Source of the DNA: a virus
Strand: one strand, 5' to 3'
Virus record (IMG/VR): IMGVR_UViG_3300025120_000612
Location: 1 to 22,631 of that record
Length of the DNA stretch: 22,631 nucleotides
A program made the translations under genes and the position numbers. Positions within the stretch are counted from its first letter, which is position 1. Every line of letters begins with the position of its first letter. Shown piece by piece: positions 651 to 14,500 of the stretch. The notes beneath the pieces were generated by a model. It did no database searches. It saw nothing but the letters and a program-made list of their open reading frames with translations, and was not told the origin of the DNA.

Positions 651-1361
651 TTATTCTCCTAAATTATAATATTTCTCACATCTTTTCAACCACTTATACT
701 TATAATCATCTAACCGTTGGCCGTCGATCGTAAACACTTGTAGATTTAATCCTCTCGATGCCATGAGGATAGCTCCAACTTCCATCTTAGTATTATACAG
801 CGCATCATGGGCCATCATGTATGCCGCTAGCTGAGTAAAGTAATCTTCAATCCACTCAATCTTTTTAGGTTTATTGGTTTGTTTAAAATCAATCACTGCT
901 GGTTTATCATTCCACACACCGGTGCAGTCTGCCGTGCCACCATAGAACGTTGGGTAGTATAACGTGACTTCAGTTCCCCAATACTCGTCCATAGAAGGCA
1001 GTGCGCCACTAATGATTAGTTTTGCCATACGTTTACCAATGATGCCAATGTTTGTTTGATCGTCGTAGCCAATTCCTTGAATGTGATTCTCAAGAAATTT
1101 ATGCATAGCTGTACCCACAGAAGCTGCTTGATGCATAACAGCATCTGCCTCTGCGTCACCAACTCGGTCTCTCCATCTTTTAAGACCAGCTAAATCTTTC
1201 TTGTCTTTTGTAGCCCCAATGATTGTTGTGACTGATGGAAGAAACTTTCCTTCGCCTTCGTAATGACGTTTGCCGTTAATCGTTTTACGTTTTACGTCTC
1301 CGTAAGGATATTTGTTTGTAAGTAAAGATTTAGGTTCTTCGTTATTTTTTTGCATGTCCAT
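651..1361 (-). CDS. PD-(D/E)XK (RecB/Cas4-like) exonuclease
   Basis: A 236-residue nuclease of the PD-(D/E)XK superfamily, similar to the exonucleases of podoviruses that degrade host DNA and process replication intermediates. Visible motifs in order: LPSVTTII (41-48), a helix with His87 (SVGTAMHKFLE), Glu131 in GTEVTLYY, the metal-binding Asp145 in GGTADCTG, the core motif VIDFKQTNK (Asp158, Lys160), and Gln177 in the QLAAYMM helix. This set matches RecB/Cas4-type nucleases. The four cysteines of the Cas4 iron-sulfur cluster are not present. Its start overlaps the RHH-like gene by 20 bases. An ATG two codons later is a possible alternative start, and neither has a strong ribosome-binding site. 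The family assignment is confident; substrate polarity cannot be told from sequence. Confidence 0.85.
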   Translation of the reverse strand: MDMQKNNEEPKSLLTNKYPYGDVKRKTINGKRHYEGEGKFLPSVTTIIGATKDKKDLAGLKRWRDRVGDAEADAVMHQAASVGTAMHKFLENHIQGIGYDDQTNIGIIGKRMAKLIISGALPSMDEYWGTEVTLYYPTFYGGTADCTGVWNDKPAVIDFKQTNKPKKIEWIEDYFTQLAAYMMAHDALYNTKMEVGAILMASRGLNLQVFTIDGQRLDDYKYKWLKRCEKYYNLGE

Positions 1362-1524
1362 TGAGCTTTAACTTTTTTACTTTTTCTTTTGCTAAATGTT
1401 CAATGAGTTTGGCCAATGAAAAGCTGACACCTAAGTCCTCTGATAATTGTTCCTTGATTAAATTTAATTCTTTGTAAGCTTCTTTCGAAATAGAAACAGA
1501 CGAGTATTTACTGATGTCGGGCAT
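1342..1524 (-). CDS. Ribbon-helix-helix-like small protein
   Basis: A 60-residue protein beginning MPDISKYSSVSISKEAYKEL. The arrangement of a short strand (SSVSIS) followed by two helices (KEAYKELNLIKEQLSE and SLAKLIEHLAKEKV) separated by a Gly/Ser turn fits a CopG/Arc type ribbon-helix-helix DNA-binding fold, which works as a dimer on short palindromic operators. Two adjacent ATGs exist at 1527 and 1524; the second is better spaced from the upstream GAAGG. It lies in the operon driven from 1715-1778, next to short palindromes there, so autoregulation is a reasonable inference. The similarity is at the level of fold pattern only; a structural adaptor for the adjacent nuclease cannot be excluded. 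Confidence 0.6.
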   Translation of the reverse strand: MPDISKYSSVSISKEAYKELNLIKEQLSEDLGVSFSLAKLIEHLAKEKVKKLKLNGHAKK

Positions 1525-1549
1525 CATTACCTTCTTTCTTTGTTATGTT

Positions 1550-1714
1550 TTATATTGCGATTTCTCGACCGGTCTCTTGGACAAAAGATACCCTAAGACT
1601 GTTAATCGTTTGTTGAAGTTGTTCAATCCTTTGTTTCAAAAGTTTGTTCTCTTCATGTAAACGACTTGTCTCAAAATCGTCGCCAAATACAAATGGCATT
1701 AGATTATCTTCCAT
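1550..1714 (-). CDS. Small coiled-coil protein, 54 residues
   Basis: ATG at 1714-1712 preceded by a strong GGAGG about seven bases upstream; TAA at 1552-1550. The product starts MEDNLMPFVFGDDFETSR and then forms an amphipathic segment (HEENKLLKQRIEQLQQTI, residues 20-37) with leucine and isoleucine at heptad-like spacing, so a short dimeric coiled coil is likely. The first 15 residues are acidic and hydrophobic. It is the first gene of the leftward transcription unit starting from the divergent promoter region, with 22 bases before the RHH-like gene. I do not recognise a family; position suggests an early protein, perhaps acting by binding a host factor. Confidence 0.65.
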   Translation of the reverse strand: MEDNLMPFVFGDDFETSRLHEENKLLKQRIEQLQQTINSLRVSFVQETGREIAI

Positions 1715-1745
1715 ATAGATTCCTCCATATTTTATTATAATGTAC

Positions 1746-1778
1746 TACTATATATAGTATTTTACTATTGACTGTCAA
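1746..1778. promoter_or_regulatory. Palindromes over the divergent promoters, candidate operators
   Basis: Two perfect palindromes are visible: TACTATATATAGTA at 1746-1759, covering the leftward -10 box, and TTGACTGTCAA at 1768-1778, which contains both -35 boxes. Further TACTA or TAGTA half-sites occur at 1743-1747, 1755-1759 and 1763-1767. Clustered short half-sites of this type are what RHH repressors recognise, and a RHH-like gene lies two genes downstream on the left. Operator function is inferred, and AT-rich palindromes can arise by chance. Confidence 0.4.
1751..1778 (-). promoter_or_regulatory. Leftward sigma70-like promoter
   Basis: Read on the minus strand, a perfect -35 box TTGACA (1778-1773) is followed after 16 bases by TATATA (1756-1751). 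Transcription would start near 1744, about 30 bases before the ATG at 1714, leaving room for the GGAGG site. A TATAAT at 1739-1734 is an alternative -10 but has no good -35 partner. The -35 box overlaps that of the rightward promoter. Confidence 0.55.
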
Positions 1779-1797
1779 CTAAATAGTGTTATATAAT
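1768..1797 (+). promoter_or_regulatory. Rightward sigma70-like promoter
   Basis: TTGACT (1768-1773), an 18-base spacer, then a perfect TATAAT (1792-1797). Transcription would begin near 1804, and a GAGGAG ribosome-binding site (1815-1820) precedes the ATG at 1825. The same architecture recurs before the SNF2 helicase at 9826-9855. Confidence 0.7.
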
Positions 1798-1824: not shown

Positions 1825-1995
1825 ATGGCGCATACAATAACAAAATATGATATTTTTAATGCACAAGATCATTACAGAAGAGTAATGAGACTGCCAGAAT
1901 TTAAGCAGTTAAAACTTTGTCAAAAAAAATCAGTTATTAATTTAAGAAATAAATGGAACAATTACAACAGATGGGAAAACACTATAAATGAGTAG
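1825..1995 (+). CDS. Small hypothetical protein, 56 residues, basic
   Basis: The start is the ATG at 1825-1827, five bases after GAGGAG. An upstream in-frame ATG at 1786 lies inside the promoter and is rejected. The product (MAHTITKYDIFNAQDHYRRV onward) is helical and basic, rich in Lys, Arg, Asn and aromatic residues, with no cysteine pair and no membrane segment. I do not recognise a family. It is the first gene behind the rightward promoter and overlaps the TSCPD gene by 8 bases, so the two form a short operon transcribed against the flanking replication genes. A small DNA- or protein-binding early protein is plausible but not shown. Confidence 0.65.
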   Translation: MAHTITKYDIFNAQDHYRRVMRLPEFKQLKLCQKKSVINLRNKWNNYNRWENTINE

Positions 1996-2353
1996 AACAG
2001 AACTAGATAATCGTAGACCATCATACGCATTTCAAATCACAGATAGCAATGGAACTCCTTACAGGCTGGCCGTATCTTTTCAAAATGATGAAGTAAAAGA
2101 AATATGGGTGAGTGGTGGAGGAAAAGTTGGCACAGAAAAGTTTGATATCTTAACAGAATTTGGCAGACTAATTTCCGTTGCTCTTCAGCACGGTGTGCCT
2201 TTTGAAGAACTATATTCGTGTGCCACTTATCACACTGACGGTAGGCCGTCGACCATTATTGGGGAAGTATTTAATGCTGTTAATTTTAAAGAGTCTCAGT
2301 CTTCTGGATCGAATTCGGGTTCAAATTCAATATCAAACTCTAGATCAGTTTGA
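1988..2353 (+). CDS. Stand-alone TSCPD-domain protein
   Basis: A 121-residue protein. Residues about 10-100 match the TSCPD domain pattern known from the C-terminus of vitamin B12-dependent (class II) ribonucleotide reductases: a basic RRP start, a strand around YRLAVSF, KEIWVSGGGKVGTEKFD, then the helix GRLISVALQHGVPFEEL and a DGRPSTIIG segment. The residues TSCPD themselves are not present. No ribonucleotide reductase gene is in the window, so whether it assists deoxynucleotide synthesis or has another role is open. The last 17 residues are a Ser/Gly/Asn-rich tail whose DNA also codes, on the other strand, for the acidic end of the zinc-ribbon protein. The family call rests on remembered pattern similarity. 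Confidence 0.65.
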   Translation: MSRTELDNRRPSYAFQITDSNGTPYRLAVSFQNDEVKEIWVSGGGKVGTEKFDILTEFGRLISVALQHGVPFEELYSCATYHTDGRPSTIIGEVFNAVNFKESQSSGSNSGSNSISNSRSV

Positions 2354-9825: not shown

Positions 9826-9855
9826 TTGACATTTAATATAATCATCTTATATAAT
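9826..9855 (+). promoter_or_regulatory. Rightward sigma70-like promoter of the SNF2 gene
   Basis: Perfect TTGACA (9826-9831), an 18-base spacer and perfect TATAAT (9850-9855). Transcription would begin near 9862, leaving a leader of about 45 bases that ends in a strong GGGAGGAGG ribosome-binding site before the ATG at 9908. Confidence 0.75.
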
Positions 9856-9907: not shown

Positions 9908-11374
9908 ATGGCACAAACCATGGACTATCGCTTTAAAACAAAACCGTATCAGCATCAAATTGATGCATTAAAAGTGTCGTATAAAAAGAAAAACTTTGCT
10001 CTTTTTTGTGAAATGGGCACAGGTAAATCAAAAATACTACTAGATAATATTGCCATGTTATACGATGAAGGCAAAATAGCTGGTGCAATTATTGTAGCTC
10101 CAAAAGGTGTTTACAAAAACTGGATAGAACAAGAGATACCTACTCATCTACCAGATCATGTTGAATGTAGAACCTTTCAATGGACTGCTCCAAGCTCTCG
10201 TTCTAAGCAAGATCAAGAACTGTTAGATCAATTATTTGTGACTACTAGAGATCCTTCACTAACTTTGTTTGTAATGAATATAGAAGCGTTCTCTTCTAAA
10301 CCTGGAATGGAAGCCGCAGAAAAGTTTTTGATGGCCTACAAGTCAATGATGGCTATTGATGAAAGCACTACCATTAAGACTCCATCTGCCAAAAGGACTA
10401 AGAATATAGTGGCCGTTAGCCGTTATGCGTATTACAAAAGAATTATGACAGGAAGCCCTGTCACTAAAAGCCCATTGGATTTGTATGCACAATGTGAGTT
10501 CTTAGATGAGGATTTACTAGGACACAGTTCATACTACACATTTAGAGCACGCTATGCCAATATGCAGACAATTAACGTTGGTGGTCGTTCGGTAAACATT
10601 GTTCGTCCTAACAATAGTTACCGTAACCTTGGCGAGTTGTCTGATATCGTCAGTAAGTTTTCATATAGAATCTTAAAAGAAGATTGTCTTGATCTACCAG
10701 ATAAAGTTTTTGAGAAACGAATGGTTGAACTGACACCAGAACAAAATAAAGCATACACAACTATGCGGCAGATTGCTCTTGCAGAACTGAATGGTAAAGT
10801 TTGTTCGACTGTAAATGTGTTGACACAACTTTTAAGACTACATCAAATTACTTGCGGCCATTTAAAAACAGATGACAAAACAATTGTTCAGTTAAAAAAC
10901 AATCGACTGACTGAATTAATGTCTTTATTAGAAGAGACAGAAGGTAAAGTTATAATCTGGGCAACTTACGTTGCAGACATAGAAAATATCGTAAAGTCTT
11001 TAAAAAAAGCTTACGGAGAAGCCTCTACAGTAGCATACTACGGTGCAGTGGATGCAAGGGTCCGCCAAAAGCAAATCACTCTGTTTCAGGATAAAAACGG
11101 CCCTACGCGCTATTTCGTTGGAAACCCGTCTACAGGAGGGTACGGAATCACCCTTACAGCGGCTAGTACGGTAGTATACTACTCTAACAGCTATGATTTA
11201 GAAAAAAGACTGCAATCAGAAGATCGAGCACACAGAATTGGTCAAACAAATAAAGTGACGTACATTGATTTGATGTGTGAGAAAACTGTTGATGAGAAAA
11301 TTGTCAAAGCATTAAGAAATAAAATTAATGTTGCTAATGAAATTCTTGGTGAAGATTTAAAAGATTGGATTTAG
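9908..11374 (+). CDS. SNF2-family SF2 helicase/ATPase
   Basis: A 488-residue DNA-dependent ATPase. Motifs: PYQHQIDAL (13-21, Q-like region), Walker A EMGTGKSK (35-42), Ia IIVAPKGV (61-68), II IDEST (150-154), III TGSP (181-184), LTPEQNKAY (275-283), IV VIIWATY (348-354), V GGYGITLTAAS (410-420) and VI QSEDRAHRIGQ (436-446). The DE-ST box and EDRAHRIGQ are typical of SNF2-like proteins. No nuclease or DNA-binding add-on domain is visible, so it is a minimal SNF2 core as in other phages, probably remodelling recombination or fork structures. It is the only gene on this strand in the middle of the window, with its own strong promoter and ribosome-binding site, and it ends in a TTAG tetranucleotide shared with the stop of the converging gene. 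Confidence 0.9.
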   Translation: MAQTMDYRFKTKPYQHQIDALKVSYKKKNFALFCEMGTGKSKILLDNIAMLYDEGKIAGAIIVAPKGVYKNWIEQEIPTHLPDHVECRTFQWTAPSSRSKQDQELLDQLFVTTRDPSLTLFVMNIEAFSSKPGMEAAEKFLMAYKSMMAIDESTTIKTPSAKRTKNIVAVSRYAYYKRIMTGSPVTKSPLDLYAQCEFLDEDLLGHSSYYTFRARYANMQTINVGGRSVNIVRPNNSYRNLGELSDIVSKFSYRILKEDCLDLPDKVFEKRMVELTPEQNKAYTTMRQIALAELNGKVCSTVNVLTQLLRLHQITCGHLKTDDKTIVQLKNNRLTELMSLLEETEGKVIIWATYVADIENIVKSLKKAYGEASTVAYYGAVDARVRQKQITLFQDKNGPTRYFVGNPSTGGYGITLTAASTVVYYSNSYDLEKRLQSEDRAHRIGQTNKVTYIDLMCEKTVDEKIVKALRNKINVANEILGEDLKDWI

Positions 11375-11595: not shown

Positions 11596-14500
11596 TATAA
11601 TCTTTCCGCAAAATTTAATCCGGTATATTTGTCACGAATATCTCTCATTCTTTCCAAATCTATAAACTCTCTTAATTTAATGTTTCTATCTCTTAAATTT
11701 TTAACTAATCTAGTATCTCTAAACAACCTAGAATAATCATCTGGTACAAAACGGCCGCTTAAAATAATATTTAAATCTCTTTTTGTAAATCTTGTTTTAC
11801 CTATATTTTTCAAAATGTATTTTTTTTCATATCCTAATTTTATAGCATCTTCAAACACTTTTCTTATTTCAACAAAATTTTGATATTTATTACTAAGAAG
11901 ATCTTCATATTCTCTATAAACAGTTTCAGCATTTAAGTTCCCTCTTCCAAATTTACTTGTCAACAGCCTTTTGGCTTCCCTTTGATCAGTGAGATATTTG
12001 TTAACATTAAATCCTATGGACTTCCCAACATCAGTTTCATTGATTCTTATGCCTGCAATCAAAGCCAGTGCTTCATCAGATGCATTAAATTTTTCTTTAT
12101 AAACACCTCTTTCTCCCATAACACCTCTTGACATGTTTGTGACTTGAGTAAAAACTCCCGGAGTCAGTCCACTTAAAAAATGAAAAACTGATTTAACCGC
12201 TTGGTCAGAAAAATCTTCTTCTGAACTAAATATTTTTCTTCCTGTTTTTGTTCTGCCTCCTCTTATAGTTATATCTGCTAATTTTTCAGTAATAATTGCT
12301 TCACTAACAAAAGGAGATATTAAACTCGTAAAAGATCCAGGACCTGTCTCATCTCCAAAAAAAGCTTTAAACATTATGTCATCTAACTCTCTTCCTTCCA
12401 ATCTTCCTTTATTTATTTGACCCATAGCAGCGTAATAAGGCGCACTTAAAACATCATAAGGACTTTGATAAGCAAAATTTATAAATTTAACATTTACTTT
12501 TTCTCCGTCTACTGTTTTAGATACAGGAACAAGCGGACCTGACCTATTCCATGGAGCAACAAAAGATTCTCGTAAAGCGTTTATTTGCTCCTCGTCTATA
12601 TCAACTAAATGCATAGCCGTTTCTTGTGCAACTTTTCCTGTAGCTAAAGCTGAAGAAAAACCAATTAACTTTTTAGCTCCTGACTGACGTACAAATTCAT
12701 TGCTTGATTGCATTTCTCTAAGACCAAATTTTATTAGATTAAAGCTTGTTCGATACATCTCTGCTGGAAAAGAAATAAAATTTCCAAGAGGTAATCTTCT
12801 TAAATTTTGTATAATAGAAGGCACGTAAGCATAGTTAGGGTATGTGTTTTTAATTGTTTCTGCTGCTATTTCTCTAATTGCTTCTTCTCTAGTTTTAATA
12901 GATCTTCCATCTGGCATATACTCATTAAACTGTCTTCCAAAAACTTCTCTGTAATAGTCTTTAGCATCTTTTATGTGAGTAGATTCGTCTCCTAATTTAG
13001 CCGTGTTGCTTCTAATTATGTTTAATAGTTTAGATTTTTCAAACTCATAGCCAAATATTTTCCATACATCATCTCCACCTTGATATATTTTTGTAGCATT
13101 ACTTAAAATAGAACTATCCTGAAGTGTTTTTAAAATGTTTTCTGTTGTGCCTAATTTACCTGTTTCTTTGGTGCTTCTGATTATATCATCTACTAAAGAT
13201 TTCACTTCATTTGTTATGATGTTTGAGTTTGTTATTCCCATTCTTCTGAACTCTTCTCCTTTAACAGCAAGTCGCTCAACATCAATAACTCCTTTAGGAC
13301 CAACTACATCCTCAAACACAAATTTCATAGCATCTCTAAGACTTGCCCCGCGACCAAAATGGCCGTTGGCTAATGCAAACATTGCAGCAGACTCTACATT
13401 TCTAATTTGAGTTGTTGGACTAAGTACAGTTTTACTTAACTGTGATATTCCTTTAGTTGCAAGAAACGCTTTATATATTGAACTTTGCAGTAATATATCT
13501 GTGCCTAGCACTTGTCCTTTTAAAGCATCAGCTATTTCAGGAGTTGTCCATTTGTTCAAAAGATTTTTTCCTAAAATTTGATCTACGCCGTCTAAATACT
13601 TTTCATCTATTTGAACTAGTTTTAAATTTTTAATTGGTCCAACGGTTGTGTTTGATCTAAATATGGCTTGCGCTAATTCTTCTGAGTCTGCTGTAATTAT
13701 CTGACCTTTTTTTGCAAGGGTCGTCAACAGCTCATCAAAAGTTTCTTTTTTACCAACAATTGACCCCATATATGCAACCGTGTCTAAAATTTGAGCTCTG
13801 TTATCTACCGAACCACCCATTATTTTTCTGACTACTTCTGGCAAGTCTTCCATTTTATCTATTGTTGATATAGTTTTTCCTTTTACTTTTTTTAAAAATT
13901 TTTTGGGAATAGATCCAATTTTAGCTATTTCAGCAGAAGTTACTTTAAACAAGTTCTCAACACTTGTTTCTGATGAAGCTTTATCTATTAAGCTGTCTAC
14001 GGCATCATCTGCACGTTGCGAAATTGTTTGAAATTGTTCTCTTGTAATCGGTCCTATTTTGCCACCGGAATAAATTTTAGAATTGGACAACATTTCTCTA
14101 AACATTTGAGCAACATTTGCTCTATCTGCATCTTTAACTTTATATTTTGAATTTCTAACGATTTCATAACTTCGATTTAAATATTTTGCTATATCTGTTT
14201 TAAAAAGACCTTGTAGTTCTTTTGAGTCTAAACCAAGACCTTTGACCGTTGTCTGTAGATTTTTCATTTCTAAACGTAGTTTTTTCACCGCTGTTTTTAT
14301 TTCTTTATTACCAAATTGTCTTAAGATTTGTTTATCTAAGGTTTTATTTGTACTAACTAAAAACTCTCCAATTTTACCAAACATGTCGTTTTTGTATATT
14401 ACAGTTTCATCTTTTGCTATTTTTCCAGTGACTCTTGCCACATCGTTAGCCAATCTATCAAGATTATCTAAATGAACACTAACTCCTTTTTTCATACTCT

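Follow-up and report, generated by a model that had tools for sequence, protein, structure and literature searches.

Predicted divergent sigma70-type promoters with overlapping -35 boxes and an operator-like dyad in a pelagiphage-like virus

The region described here lies in a 22.6-kb virus record (IMGVR_UViG_3300025120_000612), all 22,631 nt of which were analysed and are referred to below as the window. We consider it reasonably probable that this region combines mutually exclusive divergent promoters of the sigma70 type with a dyad operator, and that the operator is bound, most likely, by a ribbon-helix-helix-like (RHH-like) protein that would thereby regulate its own synthesis. Divergent promoters of this kind are known; the new details are the overlap of the two -35 boxes by one base pair and the relocation of one of the promoters.

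Gene neighbourhood and relatives

The DNA polymerase encoded by the window is 52-56% identical to those of the Pelagibacter phages HTVC027P and HTVC023P and of phage 023Pt_psg01, and because of this identity we call the virus pelagiphage-like, a relative of the viruses that infect the ocean bacterium SAR11; no direct DNA similarity to known phages was found. Nearly all of its long genes are read leftward, the two rightward units being 1825-2353 and 9908-11374. The regulatory region sits between the first of these, comprising a 56-aa gene and a TSCPD gene, and a leftward unit comprising genes for a coiled-coil-like protein (cc54), the RHH-like protein and an exonuclease. The genes concerned are as follows.

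651..1361, - strand: 236-aa PD-(D/E)XK exonuclease-like protein (PHROG 298, E=9e-50)
1342..1527, - strand: 61-aa RHH-like protein, the candidate autoregulator
1550..1714, - strand: 54-aa coiled-coil-like protein (cc54), leading gene of the leftward unit
1825..1995, + strand: 56-aa protein, leading gene of the rightward unit
1988..2353, + strand: 121-aa TSCPD-domain protein (PF12637, E=3.9e-6, 27.5 bits against a cut-off of 22.8)

The cc54 gene is preceded by GGAGG (top strand CCTCC, 1722-1726). On the other side, the 56-aa gene was undetected in many relatives, and the TSCPD protein of the window (1988-2353) stands alone. A tie of this protein to a phage ribonucleotide reductase was considered and dropped, as the large-chain C-terminal domain of that enzyme (PF02867) was not found when 10 records from this group, some of them fragmentary, were scanned. 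The TSCPD gene also overlaps a leftward 89-aa gene tail to tail by 58 bases (window 2296-2353); rightward transcripts would therefore enter the polymerase operon in antisense unless terminated there, and the terminator scan listed none near this overlap.

The exonuclease, RHH-like and TSCPD proteins each served as a query to gather relatives, and the loci so obtained have the same gene order. The RHH-like family led to 53 loci and the TSCPD family to 56, largely on common contigs, and up to the leftward -35 box their intergenic regions collapse to 27 distinct sequences. These split into two layouts, referred to as layout A (n=14, the window included) and layout B (n=13). In three relatives (L026, at 2577-2762 on the - strand, and also L027 and L008) the DNA that separates the rightward promoter from the TSCPD gene includes a stretch resembling manA RNA; the match in L026 (Rfam RF01745, 35.2 bits, E=1e-7) falls below the gathering score of 55.2, and a 20-base core of the stretch recurs exactly in 32 viral-contig stretches.

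Two predicted promoters that share a base pair

The predicted promoter elements of the window are listed below.

1768..1773, + strand: rightward -35 box TTGACT, base pair 1773 being common with the leftward -35 box
1792..1797, + strand: rightward -10 box TATAAT (N18)
1773..1778, - strand: leftward -35 box TTGACA (top strand TGTCAA)
1749..1754, - strand: leftward -10 box at N18, TATATA in the window and mostly TATANT in layout-A relatives

A preliminary description of this DNA had noted that the 11-mer TTGACTGTCAA at 1768-1778 is a perfect odd palindrome, which a string check bears out; TTGACNGTCAA has a single exact match in the window, at this same palindrome. The 11-mer consists of two back-to-back -35 hexamers with one base pair in common, and its symmetry requires no protein. 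Since the -35 boxes overlap, one bound RNA polymerase would be expected from the geometry to exclude the other, in keeping with the earlier proposal that only one promoter could be occupied at a time.

The rightward promoter, TTGACT-N18-TATAAT, agrees with what had been described: it matches the consensus at 11 of 12 positions, leads the 22 sigma70-like sites listed for the first 6 kb and ranks third among about 45,000 window positions with a sigma70 weight matrix. Transcription from it would be expected to start near 1804. Sigma70-type hexamers at a spacing of 16-18 bp occur at the same place in all 14 layout-A sequences, and in each of them the best rightward promoter by the matrix starts at the overlapping -35 box. 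The rightward -10 box of layout A lies 16-18 bp downstream of the 11-mer; in most relatives of this layout it is TATTAT or TAGTAT at N16, usually with TGn ahead, TATTAT after TGn being the form found in most. First by the matrix among all sigma70-like sites of the window is TTGACA-N18-TATAAT at 9826-9855, which lies immediately ahead of the helicase-like rightward gene at 9908 and is likely the promoter of that unit. That the top site precedes the other rightward gene suggests that the virus uses sigma70-type promoters of this kind.

The leftward promoter had been described as TTGACA-N16-TATATA. This site is present (-10 at 1751-1756) but weak: its -10 box lacks a T at position 6, it was missed by the consensus scan and it is only 65th in the window by the weight matrix. 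The relatives indicate that a -10 box at N18 is better placed, as this was the best leftward register in 13 of the 14 layout-A sequences, the window being the exception. There, TATAGT at N20 (1747-1752) scores slightly above TATATA at N18, and the -10 box is weak in every register (N16, N18 and N20). The N18 boxes of the other 13 layout-A sequences are TATAAT, TATAGT, TATACT, TATATT, TATAAG, TATGTT and TATCTT; some leftward -10 boxes of layout B are poor (TACATG, TACATC). The -35 box is TTGACA in all 27 sequences except L028 (TTGACT), and GTCAA stands 19-20 bp from TAGTA in 27/27, in both layouts. Judged by sigma70 hexamers at 16-18 bp, the candidate leftward promoter has a perfect and conserved -35 box and an N18 -10 box that is good in most layout-A relatives and TATATA in the window. 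The two -10 boxes (1792-1797 and 1749-1754) are separate, and one symmetrical -10 box used in both directions was not found.

Across the 14 layout-A sequences, no change is seen in 10 of the 11 columns of the palindrome or in any of the five of the adjoining TACTA; of 188 fourfold-degenerate sites in four neighbouring genes of this set (exo, tscpd, pol and rhh), only 6 are invariant. To judge from this difference, the regulatory region is real and strongly selected. The 11-mer itself is exact in 13 of these 14 sequences and differs by one change in the last (L018, TTGATTGTCAA). Such a well-kept perfect palindrome might be the site of a dimeric protein, its likeness to -35 boxes being secondary. 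We regard this as very improbable: (i) the L018 version is asymmetric yet retains two -35-like boxes; (ii) the TTGAC half is missing from all 13 layout-B sequences, in which GTCAA and the other dyad are retained; and (iii) each half has a -10 box at usable spacing. The palindrome was accordingly rejected as an operator, half of the relatives being without one of its halves, and its conservation as an independent element is not supported (the TTGAC half is missing in 13/27). Read across the alignment, it is a by-product of overlapping -35 boxes, because layout B retains the leftward -35 box only and has its rightward promoter elsewhere.

An operator-like dyad over the leftward -10 box

Two further elements lie to the left of the shared -35 region.

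1738..1764: operator-like dyad TAATGTACTA-N7-TAGTATTTTA, centre 1751
1763..1767, + strand: third TACTA half-site, which abuts the rightward -35 box and is invariant in layout A and absent in layout B

The dyad, which has its centre in the leftward -10 box, pairs TACTA at 1743-1747 with TAGTA at 1755-1759; its family consensus is TAATCTACTA-N7-TAGTAGATTA, 27 bp in length. Over the 27 sequences, mean symmetry peaks at centre 1751 (0.69, against a background of 0.31, sd 0.10), and this peak is common to both layouts. An element of dyad symmetry over the leftward -10 box had been described in the window, with TACTA half-sites that are indeed present at 1743-1747 and 1763-1767, and this much is supported, but its register and extent differ from those first given. 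The second perfect palindrome that had been named, TACTATATATAGTA at 1746-1759, is present but unique to the window (1/27 in that register); its centre, 1752.5, has a mean symmetry of 0.52 over the 27 sequences, and it was set aside as being in the wrong register relative to the conserved centre 1751. The expectation that both palindromes would be conserved in relatives with the same gene order is borne out for the leftward -35 box and the dyad, and fails for the TTGAC half of the 11-mer in layout B and for TACTATATATAGTA.

The arms of the dyad pair in 81.7% of cells across 23 distinct dyads. They also co-vary, 8 cells having changed on both sides against 3.5 in shuffles, a number matched in 1 of 500 shuffles; the covariation score was reached by 0/500, and slid registers scored far lower. 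The shuffle control leaves the relatedness among the sequences in place. When a matrix of the dyad was used to scan eight records, the locus was the top match in 8/8 (scores 19-36) and the next-best sites scored <=13, except for one at 19.9. The latter, at 25158-25184 of G002:C1 (L202 5158-5184), is the only strong off-locus match in the eight records and lies just before a 101-aa open frame. From this conservation, symmetry and near-uniqueness we infer that the dyad is an operator, and it overlaps the promoter of the candidate regulator's own unit. Readings of the dyad as a terminator (it has no G+C-rich stem or T run and was unlisted by the scan) and as two opposed -10 boxes were rejected; in the latter case the left arm has no -35 box at usable spacing, the TTGACA of L009 being 25 bp off.

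An unlikely explanation of these patterns is that both promoters are constitutive and unregulated, in which case compaction would account for the overlap and AT-rich promoter sequence for the dyad. The region is indeed short and AT-rich, promoter-like sites in the first 6 kb are not in excess (22 against 20.3 in shuffles), and the right arm (TAGATT/TATAAT) also serves as the -10 box of layout B. Layout A nevertheless retains the dyad though the right arm is not needed there as a -10 box, the left arm has no -35 box at a suitable spacing, and neither the covariation of the arms nor the near-unique occurrence of the dyad in each genome fits such an origin. An operator within a pair of regulated promoters is the reading we continue with.

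Relocation of the predicted rightward promoter

Layout B keeps the leftward -35 box (top strand TGTCAA) and lacks the TTGAC half; no rightward -10 box stands behind its GTCAA, and the rightward start codon is nearby. Its best rightward promoter, in 13/13 sequences, lies about 33 bp further left and spans the dyad (TTGTAA, TTGTAT or TTGTGT, N17, then TAGATT or TATAAT). In layout B the dyad thus extends over the rightward hexamers and the spacer that separates them; in layout A its place is just upstream of the rightward -35 box. The counterpart of the layout-B site is degraded in layout A, where TTATAA replaces TTGTAA (A for G) in 14/14. In the window its two hexamers read as follows.

1735..1740, + strand: TTATAA, a degenerate hexamer at the place of the rightward -35 box (TTGTAA) of layout B
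1758..1763, + strand: TATTTT, a degenerate hexamer at the place of the rightward -10 box (TAGATT/TATAAT) of layout B

As far as the aligned hexamers tell, the layout difference is reciprocal, every sequence with the overlapping -35 site having the dyad-spanning one in degraded form. Monophyly of layout A was rejected by a tree built on pol, exo, rhh and tscpd, in which L018 (layout A) groups with L019, L024 and L111 (layout B) with a support of 1.0. Since layout A is not one clade, there were at least two changes between A and B, or one change plus recombination. One relative, L212 (G010), has CTACTATATATAGTAG followed by TTGTCAATG at 13130-13190, with ATTGACA about 30 bp further on, which is possibly another divergent promoter pair.

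The RHH-like protein as candidate regulator

The preliminary description had placed an RHH-like gene in the leftward unit. Support comes from its homolog in 023Pt_psg01, which matches Pfam RHH_1 (E=0.0023) with 18.3 bits against a cut-off of 20.5. The window protein gave only sub-threshold Pfam matches (VAPB_antitox, E=0.079), and three members of its family matched CcdA, likewise below threshold (best E=0.029); we take VAPB_antitox and CcdA to be members of the MetJ/Arc-like clan. The protein is conserved, with 18 of 61 columns invariant, among them S10 and S12 around V11. Its monomer model has helices at 15-32 and 38-52 after an unpaired N-terminal stretch that forms no strand; in RHH proteins this stretch becomes a strand in the dimer only. 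A tblastn search against known phages returned nothing at E<=1, so the link to HTVC027P gp21 was drawn by synteny and profile comparison (hhalign, 96.8% probability). Searched by sequence against the PDB, the family and the 023Pt_psg01 homolog returned unrelated weak matches only; Foldseek with the monomer model found nothing at E<=0.001, and NCBIfam and PHROGs scans of the family gave chance-level matches only. On balance, the 61-aa protein is likely RHH-like.

The dyad may also be a real operator of something else, such as a host regulator or a different protein of the phage, for instance cc54. We hold this to be improbable, although the similarity of the window protein to RHH families lies below curated cut-offs and the coiled-coil gene leads the unit and is co-conserved in the near clade. 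Syntenic RHH-like genes follow directly after a regulatory region in HTVC027P and 023Pt_psg01, and the operator is nearly single-copy and stands beside a small gene of DNA-binding type, an arrangement typical of autoregulation. The likely binder of the dyad is thus the RHH-like protein encoded in the leftward unit.

Proposed mechanism and comparison with known systems

We propose that the virus would use two oppositely directed sigma70-type promoters for the host RNA polymerase, the leftward one serving cc54, rhh and the exonuclease gene and the rightward one the 56-aa and TSCPD genes. Bound to the dyad, the RHH-like protein would repress its own leftward operon, and in layout A the rightward promoter would thereby be released. 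For layout B, with its rightward promoter spanning the dyad, we would expect this protein to shut off both promoters. A more tentative and rather doubtful extension is that re-siting of the rightward promoter in the window lineage left the operator directly upstream of it instead of inside it, turning an RHH-like co-repressor of both operons into a reciprocal switch that would turn off the leftward operon and favour, or even activate, rightward transcription. The re-sited geometry puts the dyad centre near -53 and the third TACTA half-site near -39 of the predicted rightward start.

A close functional parallel is offered by acrA/acrR and soxS/soxR of E. coli, for which polymerase competition and effects of the regulator on both directions have been measured (PMC12825309). 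Like the window, these loci have divergent units with a regulator gene on one side, and one bound RNA polymerase blocks the other, as predicted here (PMC12825309). The repressor AcrR acts in both directions, as predicted for layout B, whereas SoxR acts oppositely on the two directions, as predicted for layout A (PMC12825309). The E. coli pairs share a symmetrical -10 box, in contrast to the separate -10 boxes, one-base-pair -35 overlap and predicted starts about 60 bp apart of the window. Their regulators belong to the TetR and MerR families, and the candidate of the window is RHH-like.

RHH autorepressors of phages and plasmids (Arc and Mnt of P22, CopG) bind palindromic operators at their own promoters. 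The window resembles these systems in having a very small protein of strand-helix-helix pattern and an operator-like dyad on its own promoter; it differs in that the family is only distantly related and a candidate for DNA binding, and in that the predicted operator has a sequence and a 27-bp size of its own. Closer to the window, HTVC027P (gp20/gp21) and 023Pt_psg01 also have an RHH-like gene that begins a unit. In HTVC027P a small gene diverges from the RHH-like gene, and TTGACA-N17-AATAAT points towards the latter; the -35 box of this site touches the start codon of the divergent gene, which, unlike that of the window, is not annotated as TSCPD. The neighbour of the 023Pt_psg01 gene does not diverge from it. 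By eye, the 27-bp dyad of the consensus was not seen in this comparison. Our literature search found no promoter described for such viruses and, by phrase match, no divergent promoters with overlapping -35 boxes; the main text of an RNA-seq paper on HTVC027P (PMC12753301) gives no starts for the region.

With its two predicted promoters, a single operator-like dyad and a candidate regulator, the region is a small module that lends itself to testing. Its relatives provide a natural experiment in which one promoter has moved while the other promoter and the dyad have stayed.
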